From positions 1-64,000 of the forward strand of contig JASANH010001412.1 of assembly GCA_030248295.1 (NCBI GenBank): a stretch of 64,000 nucleotides of DNA, read 5' to 3'. A program made the position numbers and the translations under genes. Positions 2,922 through 41,333 of this stretch are shown here, in pieces (the first letter of the stretch is position 1; each line of letters begins with the position of its first letter). The DNA comes from Mesodorylaimus sp. YZB2_4 (Eukaryota > Nematoda > Enoplea > Dorylaimida > Dorylaimidae). The notes beneath the pieces were generated by a model. The model saw nothing but the letters and a program-made list of their open reading frames with translations. It was not told where the DNA came from and did not search any database.

Positions 2922-3140
2922 ATAAAACCAGTTTCACGTGTCTCTAAGACCAACGTCAGAGCGACCTCTTCACAACCACTCCTGCTGCACCACCGCTGCA
3001 CCCTTGAAACCAAATTCACCACCTTCTCCCCAGGCTAAACACACCTATTAAAAATCAGGAGAATGGCGAGCACCTGAGGTGGGGCTATAAAATTATCGTA
3101 CCCAGAAAGAAGCCACTTAGGCCAGTCCACTTCGACTTAC

Positions 3141-4764
3141 AATAAGCGTGGGGGGATTGACCCGAACTCAGGGGCGTTTGGACTTCAAGCACTTGTCCCC
3201 AGTCGACCACGTTCAGTTCTAGGCGATCCAACATGGACACGATGCTTCCAGGAGACAATGGTCTATTTGATTGGCAGACATAAAAATTGGGAAACCCTAC
3301 GTAATTTCTGATGGGCTTGATCAAGTATGTTTTTTGCCAATCCTTGATAATCGAAGCGGGCACCATCAAACGTTACACAGTGAGGATCCCCGCAACATCC
3401 GCCACAAATGCAGCCTAAAGTTGAGCAGCTATGTTAGATCATTATTAGTTCTAGAGTAAAAACCTTTCATACTAGACTTGCAGATGCATTCTCGCTTGCC
3501 ACTTGCCCTCAGGTCGCTGCACACCGCTGAAATCAAGTTCTCCCCATATTCCTTGCTGCATTTATTTGCGCATTTTGCATCATTCGTTCCATTTTTGCAT
3601 AGCTCATTGCCATACAGTTCGCTCAACTCTCCGATGTCGCAAGACATGCCTAGCACAAAAATGTTAGCGTCACATTAAGAAACAGCACATGTTACTGTGG
3701 CCCCAAGCCCAGACTATTATTTCAATGGGCCTGAGGAAGTGGGACGTATTCGAGTAGGGATCTGCCTTGATCCTGCTGCACAAGCATATCTGAACTAACA
3801 CAACCTACTGTACAACCTGCAGGTCGTTTTAGTTTAGACACTTGTCATGAGACTTTCAGGAAGGCTCCGAGCGGAGAGACGGAAGCCAAACGAGTAGACA
3901 GTCTCGGCTATCCAATACGGCAGGGTTCAAAGCCCGCCCGCCATCGTCCGAGAAAGCCGGTGTCCAGGATGCCCTCGCGTGGAGGTGCTCCTACTGGAGA
4001 GGCGCAGATGGATGCTGTTGTGTGTGCCAGTCCCCGCAAAACCCTGCTCATAAGGTTTGACTGCTGGCCAGCTAGAGGTAAAAAAGGGGAAATTTAAAAA
4101 AAGAGGAGCCTGTGAGGGTCAGATTCATCAGGCGGAGAATGCGACTAAACTTTTAAGAGGTTTTCATCAAAAGGCAACGTTGACAAATCGGTTACCGCCA
4201 AAAACATGCGAGAAAACTGTTATAACTTTTCAAATCGCAAATTATGCTCAACCCTAATTATTCCAAGTAAGTGTTGACCTTGCATTTAACAGTTTTTCAC
4301 ATTTCCTAGGACTATTGTGTTTTTCAAACCTCGATCGAAAATTTTTGCTAAACATTTTTGTTTAAAATCTTTTGCGCCTGCACATCATATTCGAGTTCCT
4401 GTGTCCTACTGTAAGTTTTTCTCAATCCCTTGTCGCTCACTCAAGCCGAGCTGCCCTGCCTGGGTCAGTATTTTGTAATGCCGCTCACCCATGGTTGAAC
4501 CTTGCCTAGTTTCTTAACTGCTGCACAAATGGAGGGTGTGTGATTTCAAATGCTTAAACCAAATCTTATGAATGCAAGATGTTTGACGGAGACTATGCGC
4601 CTGTTCATGATTTTCTGGCATCCATAAGACATCGAACTAGATGAAATATTTATGTCACACACATCTACAACTACTCTGAACATAAAAGTCGAATAACATA
4701 CAGTACCTGCCGTTAGTAAAAATGATGCAGATAACCCGGCGGCGAGAACAAGCAACTGTGCCAT
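3141..4764 (-). CDS. Secreted cysteine-rich protein with VWD domain, partial, one frameshift
   Basis: Assembled from three exons on the minus strand. Exon 1 (4764-4707) gives a signal peptide, MAQLLVLAAGLSASFLLTA. Exon 2 (3649-3464) gives a 62-residue module with seven Cys, including CANKC and ECIC. Exon 3 (3414-3141) opens with GDPHCVTFDGARFDYQG, the signature start of a von Willebrand factor type D domain, and continues with YLIKPIRNYVGFPNFYVCQ in another frame. All introns are phase 1; the second is 49 bases (3463-3415) and ends in TTTAG. A run of six A at 3331-3336 shifts the frame; with five A, exon 3 would also end in phase 1 at GTAAGT. Downstream exons are not seen and LINE sequence follows within about 220 bases. 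It is either a truncated gene or one with a sequencing error. VWD proteins are secreted matrix, mucin or lipoprotein-type proteins; which kind is unknown. Confidence 0.62.
3866..4076 (+). repeat. SINE-like dispersed repeat, copy 1
   Basis: This stretch matches 19322-19545 closely: both contain GGAGAGACGGAAGCCAAACG, then GGGTTCAAAG (a B-box-like word), CAGGATGCCC, GTGGAGGTGCTCCTAC and GTTTGACTGYTGGCCRGC. The 19-kb copy also has a tRNA-like head, so this one is probably a 5'-truncated or diverged copy of the same SINE. Confidence 0.75.
4377..4443 (+). repeat. Short dispersed repeat, partner of 33889-33957
   Basis: About 65 bases from CTGCACATCA through TTCCTGTGTCCTACTGTAAG to TTGTCGCTCACTCA recur inside an intron of the PRKAR1 gene at 33889-33957 in the same orientation, with only a few changes. 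No coding or RNA structure was recognised. Confidence 0.7.
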
Positions 4765-4810: not shown

Positions 4811-4818
4811 TATTTATA
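4811..4818 (-). promoter_or_regulatory. Candidate TATA box of the VWD-domain gene
   Basis: TATAAATA on the minus strand, 47 bases before the ATG at 4764. The spacing fits a short 5' leader of about 20 bases. It supports exon 1 as a true first exon rather than a chance signal-peptide-like frame. Based on position and word only. Confidence 0.45.
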
Positions 4819-12264: not shown

Positions 12265-14108
12265 ACCTGACACTCACTCCAGTAATACATACTATCCCAG
12301 TCGTATGACTTAATAAAGATCTAGCATTGCTGAGTAGTGTTCGTTTCTGCAGGGACCGCGCAGGGGTGATTCGAACCTAGTACTCAGGAGGTACCCCCCG
12401 CCCCGCCCCCTAGACGGGAGGGGTATCACAGGAGGAATCGGCATCATGGCTTCTACTCAATTTAAAACCTGTTGCCATCCATAATTCGGGACTGATTCCC
12501 GCGAGCGAGAAGCCCAAGTTACATAGTTGCAAGTCTGGCTGGCGGAGAGTCTGGCTTTTGTCCCCACAATGCAATGTGAATAAAATGAAATCAAAACATG
12601 AGCCTTGCGATTCTAGATCGACTGACCAAGGAGCCGTAACCCCTCAGTCGTGGCCCATGGCGACTGGAACCCAAATCATAACGTTGATGTTTCACAGCAG
12701 GTGCAGTCCTAGACTCGTCTCAAGTCAGAGTTTTTGTCCCGACTTCGCTTGGCCATTCTCTGCAACGCCCGTCGGGGGGGTTGGAAAAAAGAATGAACTA
12801 CATCAAGGCAAATATGCCAAGGAGAGAAATACGTACAATAAAAAAATTCACCTCTTGCAATGATTAAAATACAACAGGTCTTTTTAGATGATCCGTAGCC
12901 ACTGCTTACGATTAGAATAACCAGATATCGTTCTGCATGCTCCATCATCGGGGAAAAGTTCCTGTGAATCAATGCAAATGTGTTTGCAGAAACTCATTCC
13001 CCCGCTAAATTTAGGCGCTATTTACAATTCACCACGCGCAATATAAATAAAACTGTTTCATTCTTTCAAGAGCGCTATTTCGTATTCAGCTGACTCACTC
13101 TTTTCGAGTCTTTTCGCCTTTTACACTTTTTCTATCTCGGTATTTGTCACATTTTTATTAAATACTCGACCTATTCTTCAAAGGTCGTACACGGGGCGTA
13201 TTTCATCCGAGGATCCATTTTGGTATGCAGTAAGTGCCCGATGTCGCGGCTCTCGTGATCATGACCTTTCCTTGTTCTCATCAACTCATCACATCACCTG
13301 TCAGTAACCTTTCCAACGGCTATTCCTGAAACGATTCAGCTTCCCATTTGTACATTCTAGCGCTCTCTTTGCTTCTAACCCAAACAAATTTCTTTTTCTA
13401 TCTACATTCCATTCTCTATAGCTGTTTTGTACCTATTAGCTGTAGGATGATATTTTAGTGTGCAGTACAACGGGGAAGCCAGCTGTGTTCTCTTCTGTAG
13501 GGAAACATCAGTACACCCGATAACTGAATGTATGTATACTTTGCTTTTGTTGTACCAGCACAAATCCTGCTGCCATACACACGCTTATTAGAAATGGCCG
13601 CACGCTCGCGGAATGATTCAATGTTGGGCCAACCTTACAGTTATATTTGAGGGGAACAAAGGGTTTCAGGCACTCGTGGACCAAACCCAATGTGTACCTG
13701 ATTCATGTAGCATAATTATGCGTTAGGACTTACAAAAGAAAAATTGCCATTGTACCACGAGGCAGAGCTAGACCACATTTTGATGCAGGACGATGTAACC
13801 TGGGTGAGTTAGCTGTGTTACTGTTTACTGTTCGTGAAACGATGGCAGAGCGTCTAGCGTGTTTCATCCAAGGATAAGCGACCGGCATCAATAACTGGGA
13901 AGACTACTCACTTCTTCGCGGCCTAGTCGCCACCCTCGCCTGGTCGTAACCGTCGGGCAAACATAGCTCATCTCTTTGTGATTGATAAGATACAGTGTAG
14001 TAAGCCTTATCTACGCCCACTCTCCGACCCGGTACCTATCCCCTTACGACTGCACACACTCTGTCCGTGTACCTGCCAACACCGCTTCGAACTTTTTCTA
14101 ATCGACAC
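12265..14108. other. Intergenic DNA upstream of the fukutin-like gene
   Basis: GC-rich clusters at 12390-12420, next to a GGTTCGAATCACC word on the minus strand near 12370 (B-box-like, isolated). The last 150 bases before 14109 probably hold the promoter and leader of the fukutin-like gene; no TATA box stands out. Confidence 0.35.
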
Positions 14109-15779
14109 ATGTCTTTGCTGACATCTCTCGTTGCCCCTTTTCGAATATGTGTCCGACGAATTCGTGTTGCAAGACTACTCACTTTTGTACTCGCCCTCAT
14201 TGTATTGGCACTTTTTATATTCGTTACGATGCATCGGACATGGAGAACAGATGACAAGAAAATACAAACGGAAGAATCAGTAAGAATCGATTCGGAGTCG
14301 GATGAAAGATTTCTTATCGAACCAGAGATCACGGAATCAACAAAAATCGATCTGATCGATTTACCAGCCCTTCTCCGAGATATGCATCGATATTCCGATT
14401 TTCGACTAGTCCTATTGGATCCTGATATGTTGTTCGAAAATTATTCTTTTCCCAACGAAACTTACGATAATACAATACCAAATAAAATTTTTACGTTTGG
14501 AATTTTTGAAAAAGATGGCGCTAAATTTGAGCAATTTTATAAAAATTATTTATCCACATCCGGTGATCGATATCGATTGATTACTGCGCGAGGAATCGAT
14601 TTTCGACAAATGCGTAGTAAAAAATCCAAGTCGACTTATCGAGAAATTCTTACACACTATTTCTTGTTTATCGATCCAAATTTATATAAATCATCAATAA
14701 TTTTACATTTGGCAGTTATTTTTCCACGACACAATTTCTTTTGGATATCCGATTTACAAGAATCGATTTTCTCATCACCGGAATTTCGATTTTTAGCTCA
14801 CTCCAAATACGCTATTCCCTTACCCATGGCTGTCGAATCATTCGAGTGCGCCAATTATAGCTTCGCCATCGATTATCGGGCCGTCGCTGATCGATCGATC
14901 AACAATCCATCAAATGACCCGATCGATGGTCTGATCAATTTGTGCTCATCGAATGACTTGGATTTTTATTTGTGGCAACTCCCTCACTCTCGACTCCACG
15001 AGTGCCATTTCAACGATATCGTGTACCCATTCCGGGCTCGTTTCTCCCACATGGGTCAACTGGACAATATCAGCGCGCAGGCCGAGGCTCTGGGCGAGAT
15101 TATGCGCATCAGCAAACGTCAGCGTATTCCGACCAGCATCATAAGCGGCACTTTGTTGGGCTGGTATCGACAGTGCGATTACATCGTCGAGTCGAAGGAC
15201 ATCGACACTTATATTATGGCCGACGAGTACAAATATGATTTCTTCCGTGAATTATTCGGAAGTCCCTCATTAGCATTGACTCTGCGATTGGGCACATTGG
15301 ATGTGGGATTGGAATTTCGTACATACGGCAGAAATAAAGGGGTGTGGTTGGATGTGTTTTTAATGTACCCCCAAGGAAAAAATCAAACGTGCACTTACAT
15401 GTGGGCCAATCGATATTGGTATCAAACATCGTATCCACTGCGAACGGGGGTCTGCTCTGCGGAATTATTCGGTGTACTCACTTACATTCCTTGCAATTAT
15501 GCCGATTATGTAAAGGCCGACTACGGCAACGATGGATGGTTCGCCCCGAATAAGGGATCGACTTATGCAAACATAAATATGAAATATATCACAAAATTCC
15601 CAGAAACTGATGAACCCTTTATGCATTTTCGATATGCGAAAGGCGGATGCACGCAACCAGACGAATTGTGGGGCTGTGATGATATGCCAGTGGGGGCAAA
15701 GAATTCGTATCTGTATCAGCAATACATGGCGAAGAGGCAAAGTACAACGAAAAATTGGAGAATAACAAACCATCATTGA
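14109..15779 (+). CDS. Fukutin-like / LicD-family type II membrane protein
   Basis: A single exon of 556 aa. The frame is open back to 14067, but the first ATG is at 14109, which I take as the start. A basic N-terminus is followed by one hydrophobic segment at about residues 22-41, giving a Golgi/ER type II topology. A long luminal region leads to ISGTLLGWYRQCDYI (about residues 342-356) and KDIDTYIM with a DxD pair near 364-366, the nucleotidyltransferase-type core of fukutin, FKRP and LicD. The C-terminus has NADYVKADYGNDGWF-like aromatic motifs and paired Cys. The family transfers phosphoribitol-type groups to glycans such as dystroglycan; nematodes have expanded members of unknown substrate. 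Third codon positions are AT-rich except for a GC-rich patch at 14980-15240. A diverged copy of its 3' end lies at 17201-17430. Confidence 0.85.
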   Translation: MSLLTSLVAPFRICVRRIRVARLLTFVLALIVLALFIFVTMHRTWRTDDKKIQTEESVRIDSESDERFLIEPEITESTKIDLIDLPALLRDMHRYSDFRLVLLDPDMLFENYSFPNETYDNTIPNKIFTFGIFEKDGAKFEQFYKNYLSTSGDRYRLITARGIDFRQMRSKKSKSTYREILTHYFLFIDPNLYKSSIILHLAVIFPRHNFFWISDLQESIFSSPEFRFLAHSKYAIPLPMAVESFECANYSFAIDYRAVADRSINNPSNDPIDGLINLCSSNDLDFYLWQLPHSRLHECHFNDIVYPFRARFSHMGQLDNISAQAEALGEIMRISKRQRIPTSIISGTLLGWYRQCDYIVESKDIDTYIMADEYKYDFFRELFGSPSLALTLRLGTLDVGLEFRTYGRNKGVWLDVFLMYPQGKNQTCTYMWANRYWYQTSYPLRTGVCSAELFGVLTYIPCNYADYVKADYGNDGWFAPNKGSTYANINMKYITKFPETDEPFMHFRYAKGGCTQPDELWGCDDMPVGAKNSYLYQQYMAKRQSTTKNWRITNHH

Positions 15780-18920: not shown

Positions 18921-19987
18921 GGGGCTGTTCCAATACGACGTCGTACGCCTGGGGGGAGGGGGGTCAAAGGTAAAACGATGTCGTTTTTACACTAGGTATT
19001 GCAGCATTTTCCCTCAGGCAGCTTTCGAACTATTCTGCTAGAGCCTAATTACACATGTCAGTTGAGCACAGGTCTGCCTCTTCTGGGTAACCTATTTATA
19101 ATATTTTTTGGTTGTAATAATGTGAATTGGCCAGACTAACGCGTCAGTCTGTTAGAGAAAGCAGGCGGTGGTGCAGTGAGCAATTCAGCATTCGTCTCTC
19201 TGGGAGCTTGGGAGCGAGTGGCTGGGCTCGCACCCTGGGATCGATCATCGGTGATAAAGGTCGGTTTTCAAACCATGAACCCTCGCAGACCTTGCACGCC
19301 AGGCCGTGGGTGACTCACCCGAGGTACTCCGAGAGGAGAGACGGAAGCCAAACGAGAAGACGGTCTCATCGTCAGCTACACAACACCGATAGGGTTCAAA
19401 GGCCACCCGGCACCGTCAGAGGAAGTCGGAGTCCTGTCCAGGATGCCCTTGTGTGGAGGTGCTCCTACCGAGAGACACGCAGCTGCTGTGTGTGCTGGGC
19501 CCCGCGCAGCCCTACTCATAAAGTTTGACTGTTGGCCGGCAAAACGGGCTTCGGCCCACAAATTTTTTTAAAGCAAAAAAGTTACAGTTTGATAGAGAAA
19601 AATGTGCTCCATCAACGTGATATATTCGCTTTGCTTTTATACTGCTTATTCGATTTTTAACAAGTGGGTGCCAAATTCACGAACAATCTTTGAGAATTAA
19701 AAGCGTCGAGCCAAGCTGTGAAACCAAGCACATTTTATCTATACCCAATGGTTACAAAAATATGTTCACTAAATATAACTAAATATCACTGAAAGTTCTG
19801 GGAAACATTGTTGGAACTTGTACCAATATGAGGATGAAAACATGAGCAGCTACGTAGTGAAGTGCGCGATATGTATTAATTCGTGAAAAAAATTTTTTTG
19901 AAGTATGTCAGGCGCAAAACGACAAAATACAGTACGATAGAGGGGGGGGGTGAAAACTTGCATACGACTTCGTATTTTAACGGCCCC
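18921..19987. mobile_element. Non-autonomous DNA transposon with inverted ends
   Basis: The left end starts GGGGCTGTTCCAATACGACG and the right end, read backwards, starts GGGGCCGTTAAAATACGAAG. The arms stay similar for about 28 bases (through GTCGTAYGC), and both go on to a TGTCGTTTT word further in. About 1.07 kb lies between, including a SINE at 19130-19545 and no transposase. No clear target-site duplication was found. Confidence 0.65.
19130..19545 (+). repeat. tRNA-derived SINE, full-length-like copy
   Basis: The head GCGGTGGTGCAGTGAGC with GGGCTCGCACCC about 55 bases later resembles A and B boxes of a tRNA promoter. The body from 19322 matches 3866-4076. The tail TTTGACTGTTGGCCGGC is shared with other repeats in the window (4055, 5776, 16235). 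Confidence 0.65.
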
Positions 19988-19989
19988 TA

Positions 19990-20594
19990 ATCGTCTGAAA
20001 TTGGTTGCAACGAAATCCAAAGTCTATCTAATCGTAAATCCAACAAAGCGGCTGCACGATGTCATGCGGCAACAAAAGCTGCAAATAATCTCTTCGACGA
20101 GGCATGATCACGCGAAAACTTTTAGAACCAAATTCAGGTTGGTCTTTTTACTTGCATGCGAAGTCAATCAAAAACTGGTGCCGTGTAAGTGTGAGCTGAA
20201 GGAACTGCACTGTACGCATATAAATATCTTACTTATACATAGTTCACTGTCTCATTGTCACCAGCGTCGGCTCCATCCGCCTCCCGCGCCATTCGCGCAG
20301 ACATTGCAGGTAGTCATAAAATCATGTGGTAGCCCTTGTTTTAGTAACGTTCCTCAGGTGTGCATCGTGTCTCGTGTCTATATATCCATTTTTGTCACTA
20401 TACTCTGTCCACCACTCCATTCGAAGTTTGACAAAAGAAGAGTTGCGGCAAGGCGGCAAATCCAACTGACCACACGTGCTAATATTTTCATCAAAGTTCA
20501 CTTTTTCGAACCGCTTTCTTTCAGGAAGGCATAGACAAATCAGAACTCGGTATAATCTTTTCCTCCATCCCTTATTTGGAGATATTTGAGTCAA
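19990..20594. other. Intergenic DNA before the GMP reductase relic
   Basis: A 194-codon plus frame at 19950-20534 starts inside the TIR element and has no recognisable domain. The frame is probably chance. Confidence 0.4.
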
Positions 20595-22750
20595 ATGCCT
20601 GAAACCGATACGAATTTGAAACTGGACTTCAAGGACGTCCTCATTCGTCCAGAGCGGACAGAGCTGAAATCCCGCGCCAACGTAGTCTTGGAGTGCGAGC
20701 ACTCATGCGCCCACGCCAAGCAGACCCACAGGGGAATACCCATCGTGGCATCGAATATGGACGCGGTGGGCACATTGGACATGGCACGGGCGTTGGCCAA
20801 GTACGACCTGTTTACAACCGTCTATGATCACTGCCCCAAAGAAGACTGGCTCAAGTTGAAGCATTTCTATGTGGAGCCCAGAGCTCGCAGTCCTGTTTTT
20901 TAGTAACTGGGCCCACCTCTAGAACTGAATGCAGAGAGACCAAGTCTCAAAGAAAATATTTTGTGCCCTTCGCGCGGAAAGTCCATCCAATGCACCAGAC
21001 CTGCGGCCTTGATGATTAGAAATATTCGAAAAAGCAGTGTTATAACCAGCTAAGCTACTATTACGATCGCTATGGATACAAAAGAGCTAACGGAAAATAG
21101 TGATAAAAATCGGTATTACTGATAGGAATTCGAAAAATGATAATTGACTGAAATATCTTTACTTAGCTTACCGATCATCAACGATCGGCTCAGTATGGTC
21201 CGGTAATCGATATGATTGATAGATTAGGTGATTGATCGGTCAAACGATCACAGCGATCAGTGAGTATAGGCGCAGTCTCGGAAAAAATATTTTTTGCCTC
21301 AGTTTGAACGGACTGTTCAAAGTTTTTCTAGGCAGATCGAATCGAAGTTGTCAAAGTCATCGAGTTAGTAAAGTTATCAAAAGTGTAAAACGATAAGAGA
21401 GTCTGATGAAAAAGAACACAAAAACTAATCAGTTGCATAATAGATCAGTCATTCATTAGAGTGGATCACGTCATTAAATCAATTATGAACCGCTGGACCA
21501 TTCTGATAAATAATTTTATAACAACATATTTTGTCGCAGCAGTTATCAAAGTTTTAGCTCAAAGCTAAACACATGCTCTCGCTGTTTCGCATGTAAGACA
21601 GGTTTTTGCGCAAACATGAGTTTTCCTTAGCAGTTTTCTTAGTCCATGGAGTTTTCTTATCGCAATACACGCGGGTATGTAGTTGTCTTATTGAGTTGAC
21701 TTGTCTTATCTTTTATGCAACGGGGCCCTGAGGGGAGCTGGCACGACCTATTTCTCGCATCATACCTTCATACTATGCACAATACACAATGTGAATAGCT
21801 CAGGCTTGGCAATTGTCTTTTGTGTGGCGTCCAGGTGCCGCTCTGCGCATAGTGCATTTCTTCCTTCTTAATATGTTATCATATCATAAACTGGAAGTTC
21901 GTCTGAAATTATCTGACTGCCACTTCAAATCTGTTTCATTGAATACCCCGCTCCATCATCTAGAACTCTTAAAATTCGACCGTGCCACATAAATTTGATG
22001 TCAGGGAACCAGCCACGCACTGCAGAGGTGATCTAGCGAGACGGTCCTGTACCCGTACGTGGACGCCTCATGCTGCTTTGTTGGCACGTGTTGGACAGCT
22101 TGACAGTACTGGGCTAGTTCCCATAAAATAGAAACGTATCATGATCACCTGGCCGCATAGGGTGGGCATGCATTGGGTTTGGTCATTGCAGTTGGGGCTG
22201 CAAAGTGTCGTCTGTTGAGTGGAGCTGGCGTGATCGCTGCGTGACTGCTCAGGCGGCTGCTAAACGACCAAGAACAATGAGAGCGCTAGCTTGCAGCTGG
22301 CAGGCTGGGCTACGGATCTGAGTTCCTGGATAATTCTATCACTGTATAACAGGTTCAGCTACAACAAAAAAATGTGACGCATGATATCTCGCTGTGCTGA
22401 TCAGCCTGATGCATACGTGTTACTGTAGATCTAAAACATCTAAGGTTCCTGTCGCTTGGCCGCTGATCCATCTCAGGAACTGGCGCGGCCTTGATGCGTG
22501 TGCGAAAAACCAGAAAATGTGCAACACGAAATTGGCGGCAAATTCGAATATACATAGATGCTTCGTCACATACGCCCAGGGTTTGAGACGCAAGCGTCCT
22601 CGCGCGTCTTATTTGTTCTGTTCACCTGTCAAGACAGCCATGGAGAAACATGACGGAGAAGTAGCTTCCTATCGAGCCACCGAAGGAAAATTGGTGCTGA
22701 CTTCTTACAGGGGAGATATCAAAAACACGATTCAACAGATTTTCGGTTGA
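20595..22750 (+). pseudogene. GMP reductase, only N- and C-terminal parts remain
   Basis: GMP reductase makes IMP from GMP with NADPH. The first block (20595-20903, ATG start) reads MPETDTNLKLDFKDVLIRP, then KQTHRGIPIVASNMDAVGT and FTTVYDHC, matching residues 1 to about 85 of the enzyme, then diverges into two stops. The second block (about 22605-22750, same strand) reads [20 protein letters not shown] and YRGDIKNTI, matching the region about residues 290-330, and stops early. The central part with the substrate-binding glycine-rich strands and catalytic Cys (about 200 residues) was not found in the 1.7 kb between. Both blocks keep their order and strand, so this is a decayed gene with introns or deletions. 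Confidence 0.8.
20904..22604 (+). other. Gap between GMP reductase fragments
   Basis: I looked here for the missing enzyme exons (dinucleotide-site and catalytic Cys loop) and saw none. The DNA is AT-rich at first, then mixed, with no repeat partner found. Confidence 0.45.
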
Positions 22751-24885: not shown

Positions 24886-25375
24886 TTAGACCTGGGTTTG
24901 CCGGCTGGTGCTGCGACAGATCATACAGGCGTGCATTTCATTCCATTTACATAGATCGGCTTGTGGCACTTCTCGCTCGGTGGCTGCGATGGCTGCATCG
25001 TCAATGCTGGCTCGTGAAAGAGCACACACATTTCCATGCTTTCTCCCTGGCCGATACTTTATCTGGAAATGCGTGCCGGTCATACATGCTATCCATTTTG
25101 CAAAACGTCCATCATGAGTCTTATTTTTGAAAATGTGGACTAGTGGCAGATGATCAGAGACGATTCTGAATTTCTGACCATAGATATAGGGCTTGAACAA
25201 TTTGACTGCCCAGTTGACAGCTGAGCCTTCCAGCTCGGTTACTGAATACAAGGTCTCGCTAGGTAACAGTGTTCTACTAGCATAAGCCACGGGGTGTTCG
25301 ACGCCATCATCGCCCTCACCCATGATTATGGCTCCTAAACCTTCCCGGCTGGCGTCTGTCAATATTATGAATGGG
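24886..25375 (-). pseudogene. Gypsy RNase H domain
   Basis: MTDASREGLGAIIMGEG, VAYASRTLLPSETLYSVTEL, FRIVSDHLPLVHIF and IKYRPGRKHGN are the classic Gypsy RNase H blocks. The catalytic Asp of TDAS, the Glu of TELE and the Asp of SDH remain. In the last motif (usually ADALSR) the Asp is replaced: it reads VCALSR. Confidence 0.85.
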
Positions 25376-25379
25376 CGTT

Positions 25380-26512
25380 TGAAATTTGGATATATTAAAA
25401 TTGGCGCGGTGGTTAACTTATTTTTTTAATTCTTCAAACGCTTGCAATATTGAATTTTACATTTTCTTTTGTCAACTCTTAAAGAGGGCTACCTATCCGA
25501 GAGAACTTTTCGATGAAACGCCTGTAGAAAGAACACATGCCGAGAAAACGACGAACAGCTTTTCTATCTTTGGGGATTGGCATTTCCGATATGGCTTCAC
25601 TTTGCTGCTTCAAACCTTCCACTGAGACGATATGGCCCAGGAATGGAATTTGCTTTCCCAAAAAGTTGCATTTCAAGAGCTTGCATCTGAGGTTAACTTT
25701 ATGCAGTCGTTGCAAAACGGCTTCTAGTCGTTTTTAGTGTTCCTCGAAGGTGTCCGCAAAAATCAGGACATCGTCCAAGTAGACTAAACATGTCTTCCAC
25801 ATGATTCCGGACAGCACTGCGCTCGTGACACGCATGAAGACTTCGGGGGCATTGGTCAACCCGAAAGGCAACCTTCTACTGGTAGTGACCACCACCAGGT
25901 ACTCTGAAGGCTGTCTTCTCTCTGTCTCCTTCTTTCAGCTTTATTTGCCAATAGCCTGATTTGAGGTTTAGTGTGGAAAAGAACTTGGCTCCTGATAACG
26001 AGTGTAATAATGTCACGTTGCTGTCCGACGTGACCGCGTGTGGAAAGAAGCAATCTCGAGACCAGCCGCACAAGACGAGAATTATATTACGGTTCTCCCT
26101 ACATCACACCGGTCGCCTGCTCTGGCCGTAGCCCTGGCCGTAGCCCTGGCGAGCAAGCTTCACAATACCGCACACTACACTATATGTATGATGTTTACGC
26201 GGGAGATACGAGCTCAAATGTGACAATAAATCGCCAATGCGTAGCAAAGGAAACTCGTCTCTGATCGTAATTTCATTTAGCTTCCTGAAATCCTTGCAGA
26301 ACCGGTATCGTTCGACTTTTTACGTACTAGACAAATGGGACTGGCCCAAGGACTGTGTGAGTCCTCGATTTGTTCACCTTCTTTCATTTCTTGGATCATT
26401 TTATCGACCATCTGTCTCTGACGGAAGGGTAAATGAGGAGGGGGTTGGTGGATCGGTGGATGTGATTCCGTATAGATAGCATGCTCGATCTCAATGTCTT
26501 CAAAAACCCTCT
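25380..26512 (-). pseudogene. Gypsy reverse transcriptase
   Basis: From its 5' side: HAIYTESHPPIHQPPPHLP, SPWASPICLV, a frame change, FSTLNLKSGYWQIKL, KTAFRVPGGG, then VYLDDVLIFADTFEEH, CNFLGKQIPFLGHIVSVEG and RRFLGMCSFYRRFIEKFS. The first catalytic Asp (xTLDLxSGY) is Asn in this copy; the YLDD box is intact. Several frames are used, so it is dead. The 5' end touches the TIR element at 26513. Confidence 0.85.
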
Positions 26513-29970: not shown

Positions 29971-31002
29971 TTAATCGAAGAAACTGACTAAAGCAGCACG
30001 CCTATTTCGTCCATTCGGATTATCATCACCTATTTCGGTCAAGTCATTGGTTTGCTGTTGTTCAATTTCTCGCATTATAAAATCCACTTCATCTTGAGCC
30101 AATGGTAGGCTTTGTACTGCCAAATTATGAAGCACAGTGCACGCCTTGATCACGTCAGACGCAAATTCTGGGCTCAGTCGCAATTTCTCAAGGCACGCAA
30201 ATCTCTTCTTTTGAACTCCAAAAGCACATTCAGCAACGCGTCTCGCCTTTTTGTGGGCTTTGTTAAATCGCTCTTCTGCCAATGTCATTTCATGTTGCAA
30301 GATAGGAGTGATGAGCCATTCACCAAGTCCATATCCAGAATCTCCCAAGAGGATGTCAAGTCAAATCGTGCTGCTAATGTGCTTAGGCGAAGAACCCGCG
30401 CATCGTTAATGATCCTGGTCGTTTTGTGCTGACGTAATAAAAATGGGAGTCTGGATCAGCAACCATCATGGTATTAATGGAGGATTTTGATGACGGTTAA
30501 CGTATTGGTTTTGATCGATAGATGGTGCCTTGATGTTTACGTGGGATCCATCAATTGCCCCGACACACGAAGGTATTTTGCCCAATTTATAAAATCCAGC
30601 AACAACCGATTCCACATTCTCGGGCCATTTCACTAAAGTGTTGAAATAAAAATCGTTGACTGTACTCACGACTTTGTGTAGAGCACGAGATACTGTCGAT
30701 TTTGCAGGGCCATGAGCATCGCCGACTGTACGCATAAATCCTCCACCGGCGAGATATCGGAAAGCCAAAAGCAGCTGCTGAGTTGGCGACAAAGACATAT
30801 TCATATCTGTATTGTGCTGAAGGCGTTGTCCGATGTCCATTAAAATCTGTTGCACGGTGCCTCGACTAAGCCGAAAACGGGCAATAAAGTCGTCGATTTC
30901 AAAAATGATTCTTGGACGGTAAACTTTCCTTCTCCGAACAGAAATAATATTTTCCTCACCATCATCGCTTTCGCTACTACTACTCATAATAATTGCATAC
31001 AT
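29971..31002 (-). pseudogene. Harbinger transposase (HARBI1-like), frameshifted
   Basis: An ATG at 31002 (or Met at 30987) starts a 178-codon frame with FRLSRGTVQQIL, LAFRYLAGGGFMRTVGDAHG and CVGAIDGSHVNIKAP (first catalytic Asp). Three frame changes between about 30480 and 30350 separate this from VADPDSHFYYVSTKRPGS, NDARVLRLS and GDSGYGLGEWLITPI (second Asp). The last frame ends with RRVAECAFGVQKKRF (catalytic Glu). All three DDE residues are intact, so decay by small indels looks recent relative to the active ancestor. The element moves by cut and paste. Confidence 0.85.
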
Positions 31003-31014
31003 TTTTTAAAGAAA

Positions 31015-31474: not shown

Positions 31475-33045
31475 TATGATCGATTCAGGCGAAAATCTGC
31501 GCCCCGACGCCGTAAAATCGATGGTGGCGAAATGGATTTGATGCTCAGGCAAGTAGACTCGCAAAAACCAGCTCGCTTTTAGACCAATTTTCAAAACTTT
31601 GAAGTCGAGTTAGTCGCCAGCTCTATCATTTCAGGACTTTTCGTTGATATAGCAAGATTCAGCATGCTTTGGAGTATGTAAGATCCAGAAAACCAAACCG
31701 TGATTTCGATTTTTCATGGCGCTTTCTCTCTTTTCCGCGCACTCTAATTCTCATGAACTTTGCCGAGCAACATCTTCAAAATACGAATGATGAATGGAAT
31801 AAAGAAAAAATTAAACTCAGTTATTCCCAATCGTTTTTTATGCTCTTTTAGAATATCCATTTGAAATTTAGTTTGCTCCGCTACTTGTTGAGAAAACTAT
31901 CATTTTCTGTACCCCACCCATTTTTGACCGAAATTTCGCGATTTCCGACTTTAACTTGAAATATTTCAAGAACCGCTCGACTTCAAATTTTCTTGATCAC
32001 AGATTCAGAATCATCGTGAAAAACTGATCTACGTTCGTCATTAAAGTCAACGGCTCATAGAAAGGGTTCCCTTTACCTCATTCGGTCGATCCTCACAGAC
32101 TACAGCTCTAAAGCGAAGTTTGCTTTTTACAAGTGCGAAGAAAGCCAGCAAGATGATGCGACAAATTGTTTTCGAATTGTGACGTGACTTTGAGTGACAA
32201 CGAATGGTCGTGCCTGTTTCTAAGGCCCAGCCTACAAATTTTACTGCCCTGACCGTGACCAACGACGCGCCCGTTTACTACCAGGCACCCCACTCACAAT
32301 GTTATTAAATACCTCACATAATACGAGCCACACGAAAGAAGCTAATTTAGTAAAATATGCCTAAAACGCCGACATGTACCATTCACATAATCCATACTAT
32401 CCATATTCTTGTATGCTGCTGGACACCATCACACGCGCACGCTGACAGTAAAACACTGATTAATCAAAGCTTAGTTGCTCGGCTCAACACCAACATAAAA
32501 ATAAATTGGCCAAAAAACCACCCAAAAATATAAACACCGACAAAATGACCTGACTCGGAAAAGTCAAACAATTCATAATTCTCCAATAATATTCTGGGTT
32601 ATCACTGCTCTTCTTAGCCTACTCATCTCGTATCTGCATTGTATCATTCCCATCGCCCATCCACTGACCCCCTATCACTTCAATTTAGCAAAAAACATTA
32701 ATCCTACCCTAACATAATTCTAGCATAACATACTTTGACTTAGCATAACACTATTTTACAATTCATGAGAAGCAGGCCAAACAGTTCATCTCACTCGCTT
32801 CTGATAACCAAAACGCTTCAACTCCCCAAACTCACACTTTGTCACAAATTCCGGAAATAAATGCTTCAAAAAAGTCCAAATTAAAAAAAATGCAAAAACC
32901 AATTATGTTGGAATATAAATTAAATTAAAATTTACCCACAAAAATCATGCTAATTATATTTAGTTTTTCGTCTCGTGAGAAAATACTTTTTCATTGGCTT
33001 TGTTTTTGTCAAAGAAATCGTGTATTCTTCCCAAAATCAATCCAT
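31475..33045. other. Intergenic DNA and 3' region of PRKAR1
   Basis: AT-rich, with short frames only. The segment nearest 33046 should hold the 3' UTR of the kinase subunit gene (minus strand); no classical AATAAA on that strand stands out close to the stop. Gypsy sequence beyond the protease (gag) was not recognised. Confidence 0.4.
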
Positions 33046-36000
33046 TTAAGTCAACAATTGAACGTAACTGTTGTAATTGGAGATGCTACGTTTTAAAATT
33101 TCCGAGCACGGGCCCATTACGCGTTCGAATCGAGCCCGATCTAATTTCACGCATTTCAGCTGAGTCTTAGCTAGAACGGTGGCTGCACGCGGGCGATCCA
33201 ATAATAATGCGATTTCGCCTGCAAAACAATCCAAACCGTTAGCTTTTGACCAGACGAGGAGACTTTGTTGGACTCTAGCAACTGGGTCAACGTGATTAGC
33301 TTAGCTGGTTGGTGCAAGCTACTTTGATATTGTGGCGGCAGCCGAGTACAAGGTGTAGGTGCTCCCAAGGGTAAGCGACAACGCATGAGGGATGACCCAG
33401 GTCAATGTGGCTGTGATCGACACCACGGATGAGCGGCAACGAGTACAAGACCCGTCCATAACCCTGAACAGCTTCAAGTAAAAAATATACTTCTACGAAC
33501 CCTGATTTATTAACAGAACTCATTCAATTTTGTCATTTTACTTGATTTGTTCAAATTGAATTCATAATTCTTTCACAAAAGCATGCCTGCCAAATGCCAA
33601 AAGCCCCTATTTATTTCTGGCGGTCTCTATAATGCGATCAAACTGGGCCTTTATATCCACTTCGAAAGTTGTCTGCCATTCAGATACAAAGGAAAGGTCT
33701 GCTGCAGATTCTTTTTTACTATGCTTATGCTAACCTAGCCAGGAGCCAGCTATGGCGGTTCAAAGTAAGGCCAGCTATGCCTTACCTTGAACCTCCTTGA
33801 GCTAAAGAATGGATATCCACCCACTACATGATAGATACAAAGATGAGTATCTACAAAAACGCCTTGATTCGTACTGGTCGAGGCTCTGCACATCAAATTT
33901 GAATTCCTGTGTCCTACTATACTGTAAGTTTTTCTGAATGCATTGTCGCTCACTCATAATTTAACCGCCAAGTTTTGTATTCTTGACATCTACAATATAT
34001 GACTATCACTCACGCCACTCACACTACTGTATTTTCATATGCCTCACACAATATGACCCACAAAGAAATGCACATGCTTGCGACTGTTATGTTCGTTCAC
34101 ACTGTGAACTACTCGCTTCGTGTATCATTATATTGCAAATTATGCCTAAGAAGCCGCTTAAGCAGATTCTTATCAACTGATAATTTGCCAGTCACGTATC
34201 AGCCCGTCTCGCCAGTGCCGCCAATCCCTTATCAACACTCTTCCCTCTAATCACCGCCACGCCACCCTTATCAACGCACCTGTATCACCTACTCATCAAA
34301 GTAATAAACTACAATCATCAGTCGCTCAAATTATCGATCCAATATCGTTACCCTCGATTGATATATCTTATCACCAAGTGCCTCACTTCTCTATCTTAGC
34401 GCCTAAGCAGTCTTTGCGCATTTTACATCGCTCAGATTTGTTTGCACTCCATACGCCTCCTCTGACCACGCTTGCATTCCCTAAGATTACCCGCATTCAG
34501 TCATCTACAGTCCCAAATTAAAGACGATCAAAGCGCTGTAGTCAGACTTGCAAAAGAAAACCTTTTAAAATTTTGGACGTGTTAATTCATTAGTGTCCCT
34601 GATTGTCAGCAATTTCAAGGTCATCTTACCAAAATAATCCGACGGACCCAGCTGACCGACTTTCTCTGGATCACTATCATCATTTCGCCTTTGGTACACT
34701 TCCGCTTCGCCCTGAAAAATACAGTAAACTTATCAGTCATCACGTCGTTCCACATAGCCCAGATGGCCCTATCTCTACGCACACTCATTCAGAAAACACC
34801 AGGGTCCCGTTTGAGGGGTCCCCTCCGCCTTTTCCTACCTCCACAATAATATAGAACTCATCGCCCGGTTGCCCTTGTTCGACAATTATAGTTCCTTCTG
34901 GGAACGTCACTGGTTCCAAGGCGTCAGCTACCGTCAATCGCTCCCATTTGTCCAAATCCTCTGAAAAATTAAGTGTTAATTACATGGCACAGGACGACAC
35001 TCTGACACCGACCCCCTCACCCATGTCATCGTTCTTTCATAATGAACCCACGTGGCCCCCCTAGTCAGTACACATATCATATAGTCCTTGTTGGCTTATC
35101 TTCAGCCTTTCTGATTAAACAATAATTAACACTGCTGGTCAACATTCGCCACCACGTATTCTCTTCTACTATGCTCTTGCCCACATTCCTGCGTGATTCA
35201 GGTTGAACTGTGACGAAACGACAACCCTTACATCGACTTCCATTACCAAACCACCCCCACAAGACTTTGATTCCCTTAGATTAAGCGAGGACAAGGCAGT
35301 TTCAGTAGCAAAGACAAGCCGATCGTGTCCCTAGCTATCCCTTTCCAACATATCCAACTCGTGCACTCACCCAAGATCTTCACTTTGCTCAACAGTTCGT
35401 CGTACATCTTCCTCTTACGCATAGTGCTACCCATCAATATACGCCGATACGTATCCCGATCCAGAGCCCACAACTTCACGTCCGTCTTGGCCTAGAATCG
35501 CAAAGTGAATTTTAGGACTTTTGTGCACCTTGGTAAATTCGTGTTCTTCATTATCCATAAATAAAAACCTGAAACCAGCAGGTTGCTTTCTCGAGCCCAC
35601 GCATTTACAACTGCAAAACTTATCTTTACTTTAAATGGCTCTGTAAAACACCTGTCCTCCAAGAACCCACCTTTGATTGACGATGCGGTAAAACAAAAAC
35701 ACAGCAACGACCAAATCTTTTATGGATATCTTTCGCCAGTATGAATTGTTTCAAACTCTTCCCCAAGCTGCTGCGTGATTCAGGTTGAACTTGGACGAAA
35801 AGGCGACTTTCCTTCATCAGACAACCCGCAAAAGACGTTGACACTCAGCTATTCACATCTCCCCCGCACAATTGTCTTTCATCATTCCCCTCCTGTCCCT
35901 TACTAATTCTCACTGTTCACCCTGTCACATTCTTCCAACTCTGTCTCGTCCCTCATCCTCACACACACTCCCAAGTACATCTCCATCGCAAGCACCTCTT

Positions 36001-39000
36001 GCACCCCACCTCACCTTAGCCGTAGCAGCCCGGGGCGTTCCATAAATCAACGCCAGTTCACCAAAACTGCCACCGTCACCGATCGATGCTACTTTCTCGC
36101 CGTTCACAAAAAAATCCACGTCGCCAGTATCGATCACGTAAAAATTATCACCTTCCTCGCCTTGATGGATTATAATATCGTCTGCGGGCTTCTCAACCGG
36201 CTCCATAGCGTCGAAAATGTCTCTGAAAAAAAGATGCCCTCACCATAAACAATTTCCCCGATCACACCCACAGTAGTGATAAGACTAGAATTAGGTCATT
36301 GCTCAACCAGTATATCTGCGACGCGTGTCCCCAGCAGCATTCCTGACGGTCGGGAGATCGATACCTCCCCTGGCTGGGAGACGTCAACCTCTCCAGTTGA
36401 TGTTTCTAGGGCATACATAGTCGCGAGACTTGCCTACCTCAGTCGGAGATTTTTGCCCGAGAGACTTCGGCCTCTACTATCTCCCGCCACCTAAGTGCGC
36501 TGGTAACACTATCATCACTGTTTGGGGATGCGCCGCGGATCCACAAGTACCACACTTTTCACTCAACGACTTTCCAGGATTTTTGCATCTTTCCCTCCTC
36601 GCTCTTCTACCACCCACGACAACTCAACATCTTTACTTACTTCTTCTCCGTGTCATCCAAATGAGCAAATAAAACATTGCGAGACATCGAATTCTCCAAC
36701 GCTTTCCTCGTTTCTTCATCTTTTGGAACGACCTAGAAATAACAAACTAAGTCATCAGTTTCCTACATCCCAGTTCATCCAATCGCCTTCACGTTTCTTA
36801 CCTACAGTATCTATAAAGTGAAATACCGGCACCCGTTCCACTTTCTTTACCCCTCTCCTCATTAGTACGCTCTGCAATTACCTTTTTAACATAATTGGTA
36901 ATATCTTCATCAGTATACACTTCGGCCGATACGGCTCCCCGCCGAGCTGGTCGACGTTCAGCCACCACTGGAGCATCTTCCACCACTTCGTCCTCCGGTG
37001 TAGAGATCGCCGGCACTTGGGCAGTCTGCAACCAAAAAACACTTGGTCAGAAATCCAATCCCCGCATTTTATTTTTCAGACGCTGATTGTTATATCTTTT
37101 CTCACAAAACAGTTCCTCTGAGTTATGACATTTGACGGGAGGCTGGCGAACCCTTCCTCAGGGACCACTACAAAAACGCGCGTCAAAAAGAACTGAAAAA
37201 ACCCAAAATCCTGGCACCCCTTCAGTCTCCTTTCCTTTCATCCATCATGAATTCAATGCACATGGTACAATACGCCTGGGTCACGAGACGGAATGACCAA
37301 AAGACCTTGCTACCAGCCAAACCTACCACAACTAACTCTTTCGACCTGGTCCACGGCTGAAACATCACCCGTCAGGATGATCCCAGCTGCGATTGCTTCA
37401 GACCTGGCTGCCTTTACAGGGCAGTTTCCTCTCTAGTCTTTTCTGTCGATGAATCCAGACGCTTTGAAAACAAGTTCAAACATTCTCACCCAATTTCTCT
37501 TTTATCATTACTAACCAATTTATGAACCAAATTTAATTCCATCCCTTCAAAGTTTTCAATCGCCAGCTCCCTTTTCTAGAACCAAATAAGTCAATCCAAA
37601 ACTCTGGAAATTCACCCTCCCATCTCCAAAATCCCCAAGAAGTGCTGAAAGCTAAAAACACTCGTCCAAATCTAATAAAGTCCGAGCCCATCCCCTCCGA
37701 CCTCCAAACAGCACCTCGTCCAAACTCATGGCCTGCACGCCGTCGGGTAGACAATAAAATAAATCGTGTTTTCTACTCGCTCCATTTTTCTTCGTCAAAT
37801 AATCCACGGATGGGCTCTCCATCATTTCTTGATCCGTCATAATCCTTTTTTCCCTAAATTCCGTCTCCTCCACTTCTCCAATCCGTCAAACCTTATCAGC
37901 TCGGTCCGTGAGTCAATTCCAACTCGGACGACTAGCTCGACTGGCGAGAAGGTGCCAACATACGCTCGTTTATTCCCTGCCTCCGACCAGCTCGTCTCCT
38001 TGATAAGAAGGGAATGCAAGTCACTTGGCCACCGACGACCAACTAACGCCCCTTTAGCTTGCTATACAACGCTCCCCTTTCTTCCCACTCCACTACGCGC
38101 CCGTACGGCATCACATTTTTGTCGTGTACACTTCTTCAAGCACACAAAACTTCCGCACGTTTCGTCGTTTATTTACATCGTCACTTTTCTAATACCCCCA
38201 CCCTGTGACGATCAACCGACACGACCATGCGCCGACTAAAGTGCATCCACAAGGAATTTCGAGGATAAATAAAACGAAAACAAGCAAAAAAATCGTTTCC
38301 TCAACCCTCTAAAAAAGACAAACCAAACAAACTACAAAAAATGCAAAAGTCCACAATTCTTGTGTCCTACATGCTCGATGAGCGTGTTTTCTCTTTTTTT
38401 TCTAAAAGCTCGAATGGCACAGGCACCTAAAATTCGCCCATCTTAGACCCCGTTTTTCTTCTTCCCCGACCCCTTTTCGTCGGCTTCTTCTACCATCCAT
38501 TGGTCTCGTCCAGGGTAAATGCCATCAGTGCCTGGCGGCTCGATCGAGTCCGGGCCGAGGGTGCGCAGTGTTAGGAAAATGAACGAGTGACGTTTAGAGA
38601 ACGTCTTTCGCCTCTTCTCCCTCCCAGTTTGTTGAATCGGTTGGCTGCTTCAATTTCGTCACAGCCCGTCGATACGCTGCCGCTTGTGATGGTACAGCAG
38701 TGACGACACTCGAAACCCATTCCTCTACCCGCCTATTTCCTTGCCTTCTCTCAGCATAGCGCGTGTCTTATTGCTTGCCTCACACTCGCCTCCGCTTTTC
38801 TACCCAATTACCTATTAGTACCACTAAAACCTAACGTCGTCTAAACCTCGTCAACATCGAAAAACTAAACACCCCATTTCACTCATTCCCATCACAATCA
38901 CGTAAAAATCGTAGAAAAAACTGAAAGGCATCAAACGAAGCCATTCACTCACGCGCCACACTCCCGGTCGCTGCGAATCCAACTAGCCACACCGGCAATG

Positions 39001-41333
39001 CAGCCAGAAGCAGCTGCGCCAAAACAGAAAAGTAAATTGCAAAATATCAGGTGCAATTTATAAAATTATACAAGAACTGAAAAAACGCTATCGGTGAGGA
39101 GGAAACCGTGGATCATCATAATATTCACGCGTTTAAGGTTATCTGCAGTGCAAAATCTCTTAAACAACGTCTGCATGATATTCTGGCGCCAACAGTGCCA
39201 AATCGACTCAACTGAACATAAACCCTCGATTCCAACCCACTGGACTGGCAAAGCCAGAGTTTTAACTGCCAAATTCGTGTTCTAGGCGGTTTCTGAGCAA
39301 CAGTGTAGCACACCGCCAGGCCAGCCCGCCCGCCCTTTCTATGCAAGCTACAAAATCGACACATATTCAGTCAACACTTCGAATTGTCCAGTGATGTCAA
39401 ACATTTTGAATAGACCTAGCGCACAAAAACCAAACTTTCACACCAGAAAGTGCCCCTTTGGCTCACCGTACTGCAAAGACGACTGGGAAACCACAGAATA
39501 AGTCACGCGATACCCTGCTCCATAAACGAGCGAATCGATCAGCCCAACTCAGCCCCCCCTTTGGACGTCACCTGCAATGCCTTAACATACCTTATTAGGC
39601 ACATCGCTTATCTCCTTAGGAGTATCATTCGTTTTAGGTTTCTTTTTCCTGCCGGCGCCAAGTTTGCTCGCGCAAACGCCCATAATCCTACCATAAATCT
39701 TTCTGCGTCGTTGTCCACAAAAAACAACCGACCACCCCTCGCCGATACCAACATAAGCGTCTAGCTTCAAACGATGTGCACTAGTTCACTATGCACTTTT
39801 TTCTGCATTCTTGATTTCCTCAACAACGCGTGTTCTTTTTTGCCAGCCGCCAGCTTCCATAATAGATTGGTATCCAGCAAAGGTTATAACTCACAACACG
39901 CCCAACTATGGGCATGTTCCCCGCCTTTTATGGCTAATCGATGGGAAATTTTCGTCGCGCAACTAACGTTGCCAAGTGACACCCACTTATCCATTGAACC
40001 CCTATTCCCGGCACGAACGAGCCTACGTGGGGCGAAACAGGGACGAGTCGGCTCCAGTCAGAGTGGTGGAAAGTTCACAATACCCACTAGCTTGTTTAGT
40101 TGGCCCGATCAGTCACGCGCACTCGCCAGCCATCCTGGCTCGCTACTATTCCACTATGGGCATGAATTATGGCCATGTATTAGAGTGTACACATACAGCT
40201 TACGCATATGTACGGCCAGACACGAGTAAGTAAGATTGATAGTCGGTGATAAAATACCAGTTCGTCGCCATTGTTATACCGAGTTCCAGCTCATGAATGC
40301 ATAGTATGCGCCATTGGTGCAACCGGCGACTGCACTGCGCACTAGATGGGCCAACAGCAGTTGAAACAGTGTAGTCGGCGCCCAGTCCCACGTTAACCAA
40401 TTCGCCAGTCCGAGATTCAGCAATGTGGACTGCGAGGGTACTGATCCCGTAATCGATTTGCAAATTGTACAAGGCAGGCCTGACCCCTTTTGCTCACACA
40501 GATATTGGTCAACCATCTCGTACACTTATGTCGAAATCGCATCATGATCAAGTGTGGAGCAGACTAGGTCTGCGCAATTCTGGCAAGATCGATCGCGAGA
40601 AGTGAACTTGACCAAACTACATCGTGAAAAGAGGCAAACCTACGATTCCGATATCTTTATTACTCCTAGCGGACAAAATAGGGCGACCTTTTCCACGCAA
40701 AAGTGTCTAACGAGTAACACGAAGGCTTGGAAAACTGCCTAAATAAACAGTCGATCCATACAAACGGATTTCGAAATTTGATACTCCTGCAGTGGAGAAT
40801 AAAATCGAATATGAGGGAAACTAAGCGAAAGGCCGAAGCTTAGAGAAACAACTACAATGCAAAGGAGGGCTTATCCATAAAATGAATTTTAAATTGCGAT
40901 CGGCTTCATTTGTTCAAGCAGCATGACCCAAGAAATACACAGGATACGAAGCCTCCCCAGCAAAGCGCCAATATAGGCCCGCCCACCCAAAAAGTGCCGC
41001 GCCACGGAATTTTCAATGCCATCCATTCTCCAATCCCAAATTTAGTATCGTCCTTTACCCACTACTACTATCCATTCAAAAAAGATTAGTCTAAGAAAAT
41101 TCCAAATTCTGCACAACACTCACCTGTTTTCCATGTCGACTCCCCGCAGGGCCACCGGCGCCCGATTCTAATCGATGAAAATGATCTTTCAAAAAAGTGA
41201 CCGGATTTTGTGGTTGATGTATGCACAATTGAACAATCGCATCTTTGACTAGTTGCTGAATATTATGACGTTGACAGTATTCTTCGCACGCGCGTAATTG
41301 CGCTTCTTCATGTTGACGAGGCGTTTCCGACAT
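33046..41333 (-). CDS. cAMP-dependent protein kinase type I regulatory subunit
   Basis: Eight exons, 383 aa plus stop, phases all consistent: 41333-41124, 37025-36882, 36732-36641, 36222-36015, 35491-35371, 34960-34839, 34711-34630, 33218-33046. Exon 1 gives the dimerisation/docking domain ([20 protein letters not shown], residues 17-36). Exon 2 gives the pseudosubstrate RRGAVSAE (98-105), with Ala in place of the phosphorylated Ser, which defines type I. Two cyclic-nucleotide domains follow, each with an intact phosphate-binding cassette: [15 protein letters not shown] (202-216) and [15 protein letters not shown] (326-340). The subunit holds the catalytic subunit inactive until cAMP binds; human PRKAR1A has 381 aa and the nematode gene is kin-2. 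Splice sites are canonical GT-AG with TTTTCAG or TTCTAG-type acceptors. The 4.1-kb first intron may hold alternative promoters. It looks fully functional. Confidence 0.93.
33889..33957 (+). repeat. Short dispersed repeat in PRKAR1 intron 7
   Basis: Partner of 4377-4443: CTGCACATCA, TTCCTGTGTCCTACT, ACTGTAAGTTTTTCT and TTGTCGCTCACTCA are shared in order. The copy here has an extra ATACT. Confidence 0.7.
35170..35225. repeat. Intron repeat pair, copy 1 (partner 35755-35808)
   Basis: CTGCGTGATTCAGGTTGAAC followed by GACGAAA occurs here and at about 35769-35800, with a similar CTCTTSCCCA before it. The two copies lie in neighbouring introns on either side of exon 5 of PRKAR1 (introns 5 and 4). 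A local duplication or a small mobile repeat is possible. Confidence 0.6.
37026..41123 (-). other. PRKAR1 intron 1
   Basis: 4.1 kb without a recognisable exon of another gene. A repeat of the ACTAGGTCGGAA family lies at about 37320-37410 (GGCTGAAACATCACCCGTC, AGCTGCGATTGC). C. elegans kin-2 uses alternative first exons; I could not point to one here. Confidence 0.5.

Follow-up and report, generated by a model that had tools for sequence, protein, structure and literature searches.

A probably decayed member of a family of secreted VWD-domain proteins at the start of a Mesodorylaimus contig

We conclude that positions 3141 to 4764, on the minus strand of the 64,000-nucleotide stretch of DNA analysed here (the window), probably hold the 5′ half of a gene that belongs to a secreted-protein family and decayed recently, with an orphan pair of exons at the start of another contig, C156, as its putative 3′ half. 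The hidden gene is a real member of that family, in which a small cysteine-rich head is carried on a VWD domain. The window copy is probably without this protein product, and any RNA made from it would probably be removed by nonsense-mediated decay. The genome searched was a 145-Mb assembly of 1067 contigs, in which contig C263 begins with the window; its genes and introns are of animal type.

Little is at stake in the window locus itself, which is most likely a decaying copy, and the interest lies with the family. VWD units are known chiefly from long mucin-like chains; in this family, a short head rich in cysteine is combined with one VWD-C8-like unit at 15 or more loci, with visible gain and loss.

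Gene model and family

Three gene pieces can be read from the minus strand of the window, namely an ATG with a hydrophobic exon, a seven-Cys exon, and a GDPH-type VWD exon. They are preceded by a TATA-like box (TATAAATA, 4811–4818), which lies 54 bases 5′ of the ATG; in the relatives L045, L047, L049, L054, and L055, TATA-like boxes precede the candidate ATG, at −97 to −142. Exon 1 (4707–4764) comprises the start codon and the signal peptide MAQLLVLAAGLSASFLLTA(G), and it ends at a weak phase-1 donor, G|GTACTG, at 4707/4706. This donor was rejected by the donor filter, which chose instead another donor of that phase, six bases further downstream. When the sequence 5′ of exon 2 was scanned in 13 relatives, a signal-peptide-like exon with a phase-1 donor was found just upstream in six of them (L045, L047, L049, L051, L052, and L054), with the candidate exons ending 28–49 bases before the scanned exon 2 edge; in L055 to L058, the scan gave a hydrophobic start and donors of poorer quality, and in L048, L050, and L053 it gave nothing near exon 2. 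Exon 1 is the weakest part of the gene model, though it is plausible.

Intron 1 of the window copy (3650–4706) is about 1.06 kb long and has an interspersed repeat inside it. This dispersed repeat (3864–4088) has copies, 76–91% identical, next to several family members and in the window at 19327–19540.

Exon 2 (3473–3649) encodes the seven-Cys module, with a Cys spacing of 13-8-3-12-10-1, and ends in phase 1. The initial annotation had placed its donor at 3464/3463, which adds nine bases; TCTA|GTATGA, at 3473/3472, is the donor in agreement with the relatives, since exon 2 in the main group of relatives ends as CK-L-A|GT in phase 1, at the same place as in the window. Intron 2 (3415–3472) is 58 bases long. 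Exon 3 (3141–3414) encodes the first half of the VWD domain (CICGGCCGDPHCVTFDGARFDYQG...) and, read on the minus strand from 3414, gives GDPHCVTFDGARFDYQG / CICGGCCGDPHCVTFDGARFDYQGLAK. The acceptor of this exon is in phase 1 and precedes GDPH by 23 bases in all 15 copies. The start of intron 3 (2938–3140) extends for about 203 bases, after which a retroelement begins.

The seven-Cys exon matches at least 14 other loci in the assembly, ten of the 14 with E-values from 9.4e-12 to 9.6e-7 and four with E-values from 0.002 to 0.06, and a GDPH-type VWD exon lies downstream at all 14. Therefore, the gene model is not a product of chance, and the secreted VWD gene with phase-1 junctions between exons 1, 2, and 3, as first proposed from the window alone, is borne out. 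The order of parts in the family is signal peptide, seven-Cys module, VWD, and C8-like domain; in the relatives, exon 3 is followed by the second half of the VWD domain (VNG... or similar) and then by the C8-like exon. The combination of a short Cys module with VWD directly after the signal peptide, which had been described as uncommon, is indeed present, but it is not a one-off, as it recurs at 15 loci or more and continues into the C8-like domain.

Stops or frame breaks occur in four of the 14 relatives (L046, L048, L056, and L057), and decay is thus usual in this family. The subgroup L055–L058 (two loci on C742, one each on C621 and C174) appears very similar by eye, with DYHG or DYHN replacing YQG and with several stops, and its members are possibly recent segmental copies or haplotypes. 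In L054 (C112:60500-70400, at about 3600–4100), the C8-like exon is followed by a long open frame rich in Gly, Asn, Ser, and Arg. No single closest relative of the window copy emerges: before the frame break described below, identity is 69% to L054 and 64–68% to seven others, and after it, identity is 51% to L050 and L053, 40% to L054, and 36–49% to the rest.

Frame breaks in exon 3

The frame of exon 3 is broken near an A run, as the initial annotation had reported: the zero frame is family-like before the run, and the +1 frame (YLIKPIRNYVGFPNFYVCQSN...) is family-like after it. The A6 run, within GCA AAA AAC, occupies 3330–3335 rather than 3331–3336, and the first break lies here or close by. 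The zero frame stops after 49 codons.

It was also proposed that one extra A accounts for the exon, since with A5 it would end in phase 1 like the others. This does not hold, because the homologous donor is in phase 0 in 12 of the 13 relatives that have this intron (the exception is the broken copy L048, and L054 lacks an intron there). The window donor, ATT|GTAAGT, lies 251 bases (2 mod 3) past the G of GDPH, and the last bases before it, CT[C/T]ATT|GTAAG, match those of L051 in phase 0. Given that the next intron of the family is in phase 0, there must be a second frame break in exon 3, between about 3186, where the last clearly family-like codons are found, and the donor at 3141; a C6 run (3150–3155) lies in that stretch. 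A single extra A as the whole explanation is therefore ruled out. Taking more than one disabling change relative to intact relatives as the mark of a pseudogene, exon 3 as assembled carries two.

Differences at codon positions 1, 2, and 3 were counted against eight of the 14 relatives. They amount to 21–24, 12–20, and 32–37 in exon 2, to 5, 7–8, and 13–19 in exon 3 before the break, and to 19–22, 13–20, and 18–32 in exon 3 after the break, where comparison with some relatives gives little or no third-position excess (for example, 19/14/18 against L053). This excess suggests, weakly for the part after the break, that the frames were under selection for a long time and were lost recently.

The contig end and the competing explanations

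A non-LTR retrotransposon (LINE) occupies positions 1–2937 on the minus strand, within intron 3 and in the orientation of the gene, and no more than a few bases separate its 3′ end from the start of contig C263. Its ORFs span 2933–1785 and 1839–85. The last 700 bases have seven other full-span matches that are 96–99% identical, and three copies share 2937 as their first base.

An orphan second half of a VWD domain and a C8-like exon stand at the start of contig C156, at 845–1176 and 1639–1851. In the first of these (L026 845–1176), the frame is broken between 1024 and 1027, and there is an in-frame TAA. Further, an ORF of 591 amino acids at window positions 14004–15776 (plus strand) has a 95.6% identical DNA copy on C156 (L060 1467–2951, minus strand), in the orientation expected if the two contigs abut or if tandem copies flank the joined gene. 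No Pfam family scored over its cut-off for this ORF (best E 0.031), which presumably resembles fukutin/LicD-type proteins. We infer that the C156 orphan is likely the 3′ half of the window gene. The adjacency of C156 and C263 is putative; inspection by eye of window positions 2938–2960 and the first bases of C156 showed no target-site duplication. Contig C84 was considered as the owner of the C156 half and set aside: its exon 3 is almost like that of L052, but the C156 exon is only 48% identical to L052 over 46 residues.

Elsewhere in the window, ORFs are present at 20556–20900 (plus strand), 24889–25425 (minus strand), and 29974–31005 (minus strand), which we take to resemble GMP reductase, a Ty3-type reverse transcriptase/RNase H, and a Harbinger-type transposase, respectively. 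The GC skew is strong, at −0.27 to −0.29, over the 8 kb from 32001 to 40000, unlike the rest of the window.

Against decay, the A6 and C6 runs, which are the longest homopolymers in exon 3, have the two breaks beside or around them, as would be expected of sequencing errors, and exon 3 is near a contig end. Alternatively, then, the gene might be intact and both breaks might be consensus errors at these runs, which we consider possible but do not favour, giving it a modest chance of being correct. The third-position excess, which points to a long-selected frame, and the clean exon 2 are consistent with such errors, and one extra base within an A run is private to L064, a sister copy of the adjoining retroelement, which shows that errors or mutations of this type do occur in the assembly. 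However, the window copy of the same retroelement, compared with up to five sister copies over 2211 columns that include seven runs of five or more, shows no private inserted base, one private deleted base, and 11 private substitutions. Relatives also carry A5, A6, and C5 runs in frame, the A6 run being in L046, which is broken elsewhere. Moreover, the C156 piece, if it belongs to the same gene, has its stop codon and frame break away from long runs.

It is improbable that the locus is instead a truncated working gene from which a short secreted peptide, consisting of the seven-Cys module and the start of the VWD domain, is still made. The TATA-like box, the signal peptide, and all seven Cys are intact, and the 49 codons of zero frame before the stop in exon 3 would allow such a product, but the second break and the downstream retroelement speak against it. 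In addition, the stop precedes at least one intron, and nonsense-mediated decay is expected of an RNA with a stop upstream of an intron.

Programmed slippage at the A run, whether ribosomal or transcriptional, was rejected as the main reading and is very improbable indeed: GC A AAA AAC is an in-register canonical −1 heptamer, of the A_AAA_AAC type of the classical slippery-site rule, but the direction is wrong, as the −1 frame stops after two codons (HT*) and the family-like frame is +1, the site lacks a run of five or more in all 14 relatives, and the second break would need a second event. Among the three options offered by the initial annotation, the young pseudogene is favoured, slippage is unsupported, and assembly error is the lesser possibility.

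The cysteine-rich module, the VWD unit, and known systems

We aligned 14 copies of the module, leaving out that of L046 as broken; the copy in L045 lacks the fifth Cys and has Trp there. The Cys spacing is 11-14, 4-8, 3, 12, 10, 1 in 13 of these 14 modules, and the same number show the CS-alpha-beta spacing CxxxC ... C ... CxC. The order C..C..CxxxC..C..CxC is that of CS-alpha-beta peptides. When seven Cys are placed at random in 56 residues, the two key gaps arise in 0.9% of cases.

Searched against Pfam, seven of the 14 modules matched SLR1-BP (best E 1.3e-4), three matched SCRL (best E 0.44), and one matched Defensin_5 (E 0.008), while the window's own module matched none of the three. Two module scores, 19.6 and 16.7 bits, are below the curated cut-off of 22.7 bits. 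Defensin-type matches were absent from five shuffles with Cys fixed and from five full shuffles. However, one full shuffle matched an unrelated zinc-binding family at E 7.6e-4, and one real module matched a Colipase-like family at E 0.01 instead of giving a defensin-type match; therefore, little weight can be given to matches near 1e-3. Searching the PDB with a module profile gave nothing at E-values up to 10, and a PDB sequence search with one spliced relative gave nothing meaningful. The defensin-like reading of the module, suggested by the Cys spacing and the weak profile matches, is thus a lead and not a finding.

The VWD domain (PF00094) scores 20.3 bits (E 7e-4) in the window exon 3 alone, under the Pfam cut-off of 22.9 bits, and 44.8 and 39.8 bits in two hand-spliced relatives. 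A VWD search across the genome gave 28 matches at E ≤ 1, the weakest of which was the window exon (16.9 bits, E 0.6). For C8 (PF08742), four exons were scanned: those on C112, C156, and C299 score 22.2, 19.1, and 18.9 bits, all under the cut-off of 23.7 bits, and that on C27 has no C8 match. We use the label C8-like because three of the four exons match, and these do so below the cut-off.

The GDPH motif, followed by FDG..F.YQG, is present in the window. In FCGBP, the Asp and His of GDPH are required for Asp-Pro self-cleavage, which is assisted by a Gln at Asp+14, that is, Q4094, 14 residues past D4080 (PMC10880436). The window copy and the relatives L045 to L053 retain the Asp, Pro, and His as well as a Gln at Asp+14, and in L054 the YQG sits one residue further on.

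Judging from sequence, intact members are probably extracellular, disulfide-rich proteins, in which a VWD-C8-like unit directly follows a defensin-like knob about 55 residues long. Their GDPH site and helper Gln are predicted to be set up for spontaneous Asp-Pro cleavage. By analogy, such cleavage would put the knob on a separate small chain that may remain held by disulfides. It is doubtful, and has only a small chance of being right, that the whole expanded family should be read in this way, as CS-alpha-beta knobs on self-cleaving GDPH VWD-C8-like units that yield two disulfide-held chains, with the knob freed on reduction and with the window copy, cut after the knob, as an intermediate towards a free secreted peptide. 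If the head does have a CS-alpha-beta fold, the family would connect D units of the mucin type with defensin-like peptides, and a simple test of release would be offered by the GDPH site. Among the papers listed by literature searches, none was recognised, from its title and the beginning of its abstract, as a description of a defensin-like head on a VWD domain.

Three known systems can be compared with the family. The two best VWD matches of the genome in the profile search, L001 and L002, which we take to be vitellogenin-like VWD proteins, have the VWD domain in common with it, but none of the 15 matches to the seven-Cys module lies on their contigs, C293 and C154. CS-alpha-beta defensin-like peptides (SLR1-BP, SCRL, and Defensin_5) share the Cys order of the module, whereas the module has seven Cys, not six or eight, and is fused to VWD rather than free. 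The D assemblies (VWD-C8-TIL-E) of VWF, mucins, FCGBP, and BMPER differ from the family in that the latter has the seven-Cys module ahead of VWD, a C8 match under the Pfam cut-off, no TIL or E domain by Pfam in two spliced relatives whose 3′ ends were followed only partway, and, in the C742/C621/C174 group, DYHG or DYHN where YQG stands. Nevertheless, the family likewise has a VWD domain and then a C8-like domain, the GDPH site is common to both, and the Gln that lies 14 residues after the Asp in FCGBP is shared by the window copy and L045 to L053.
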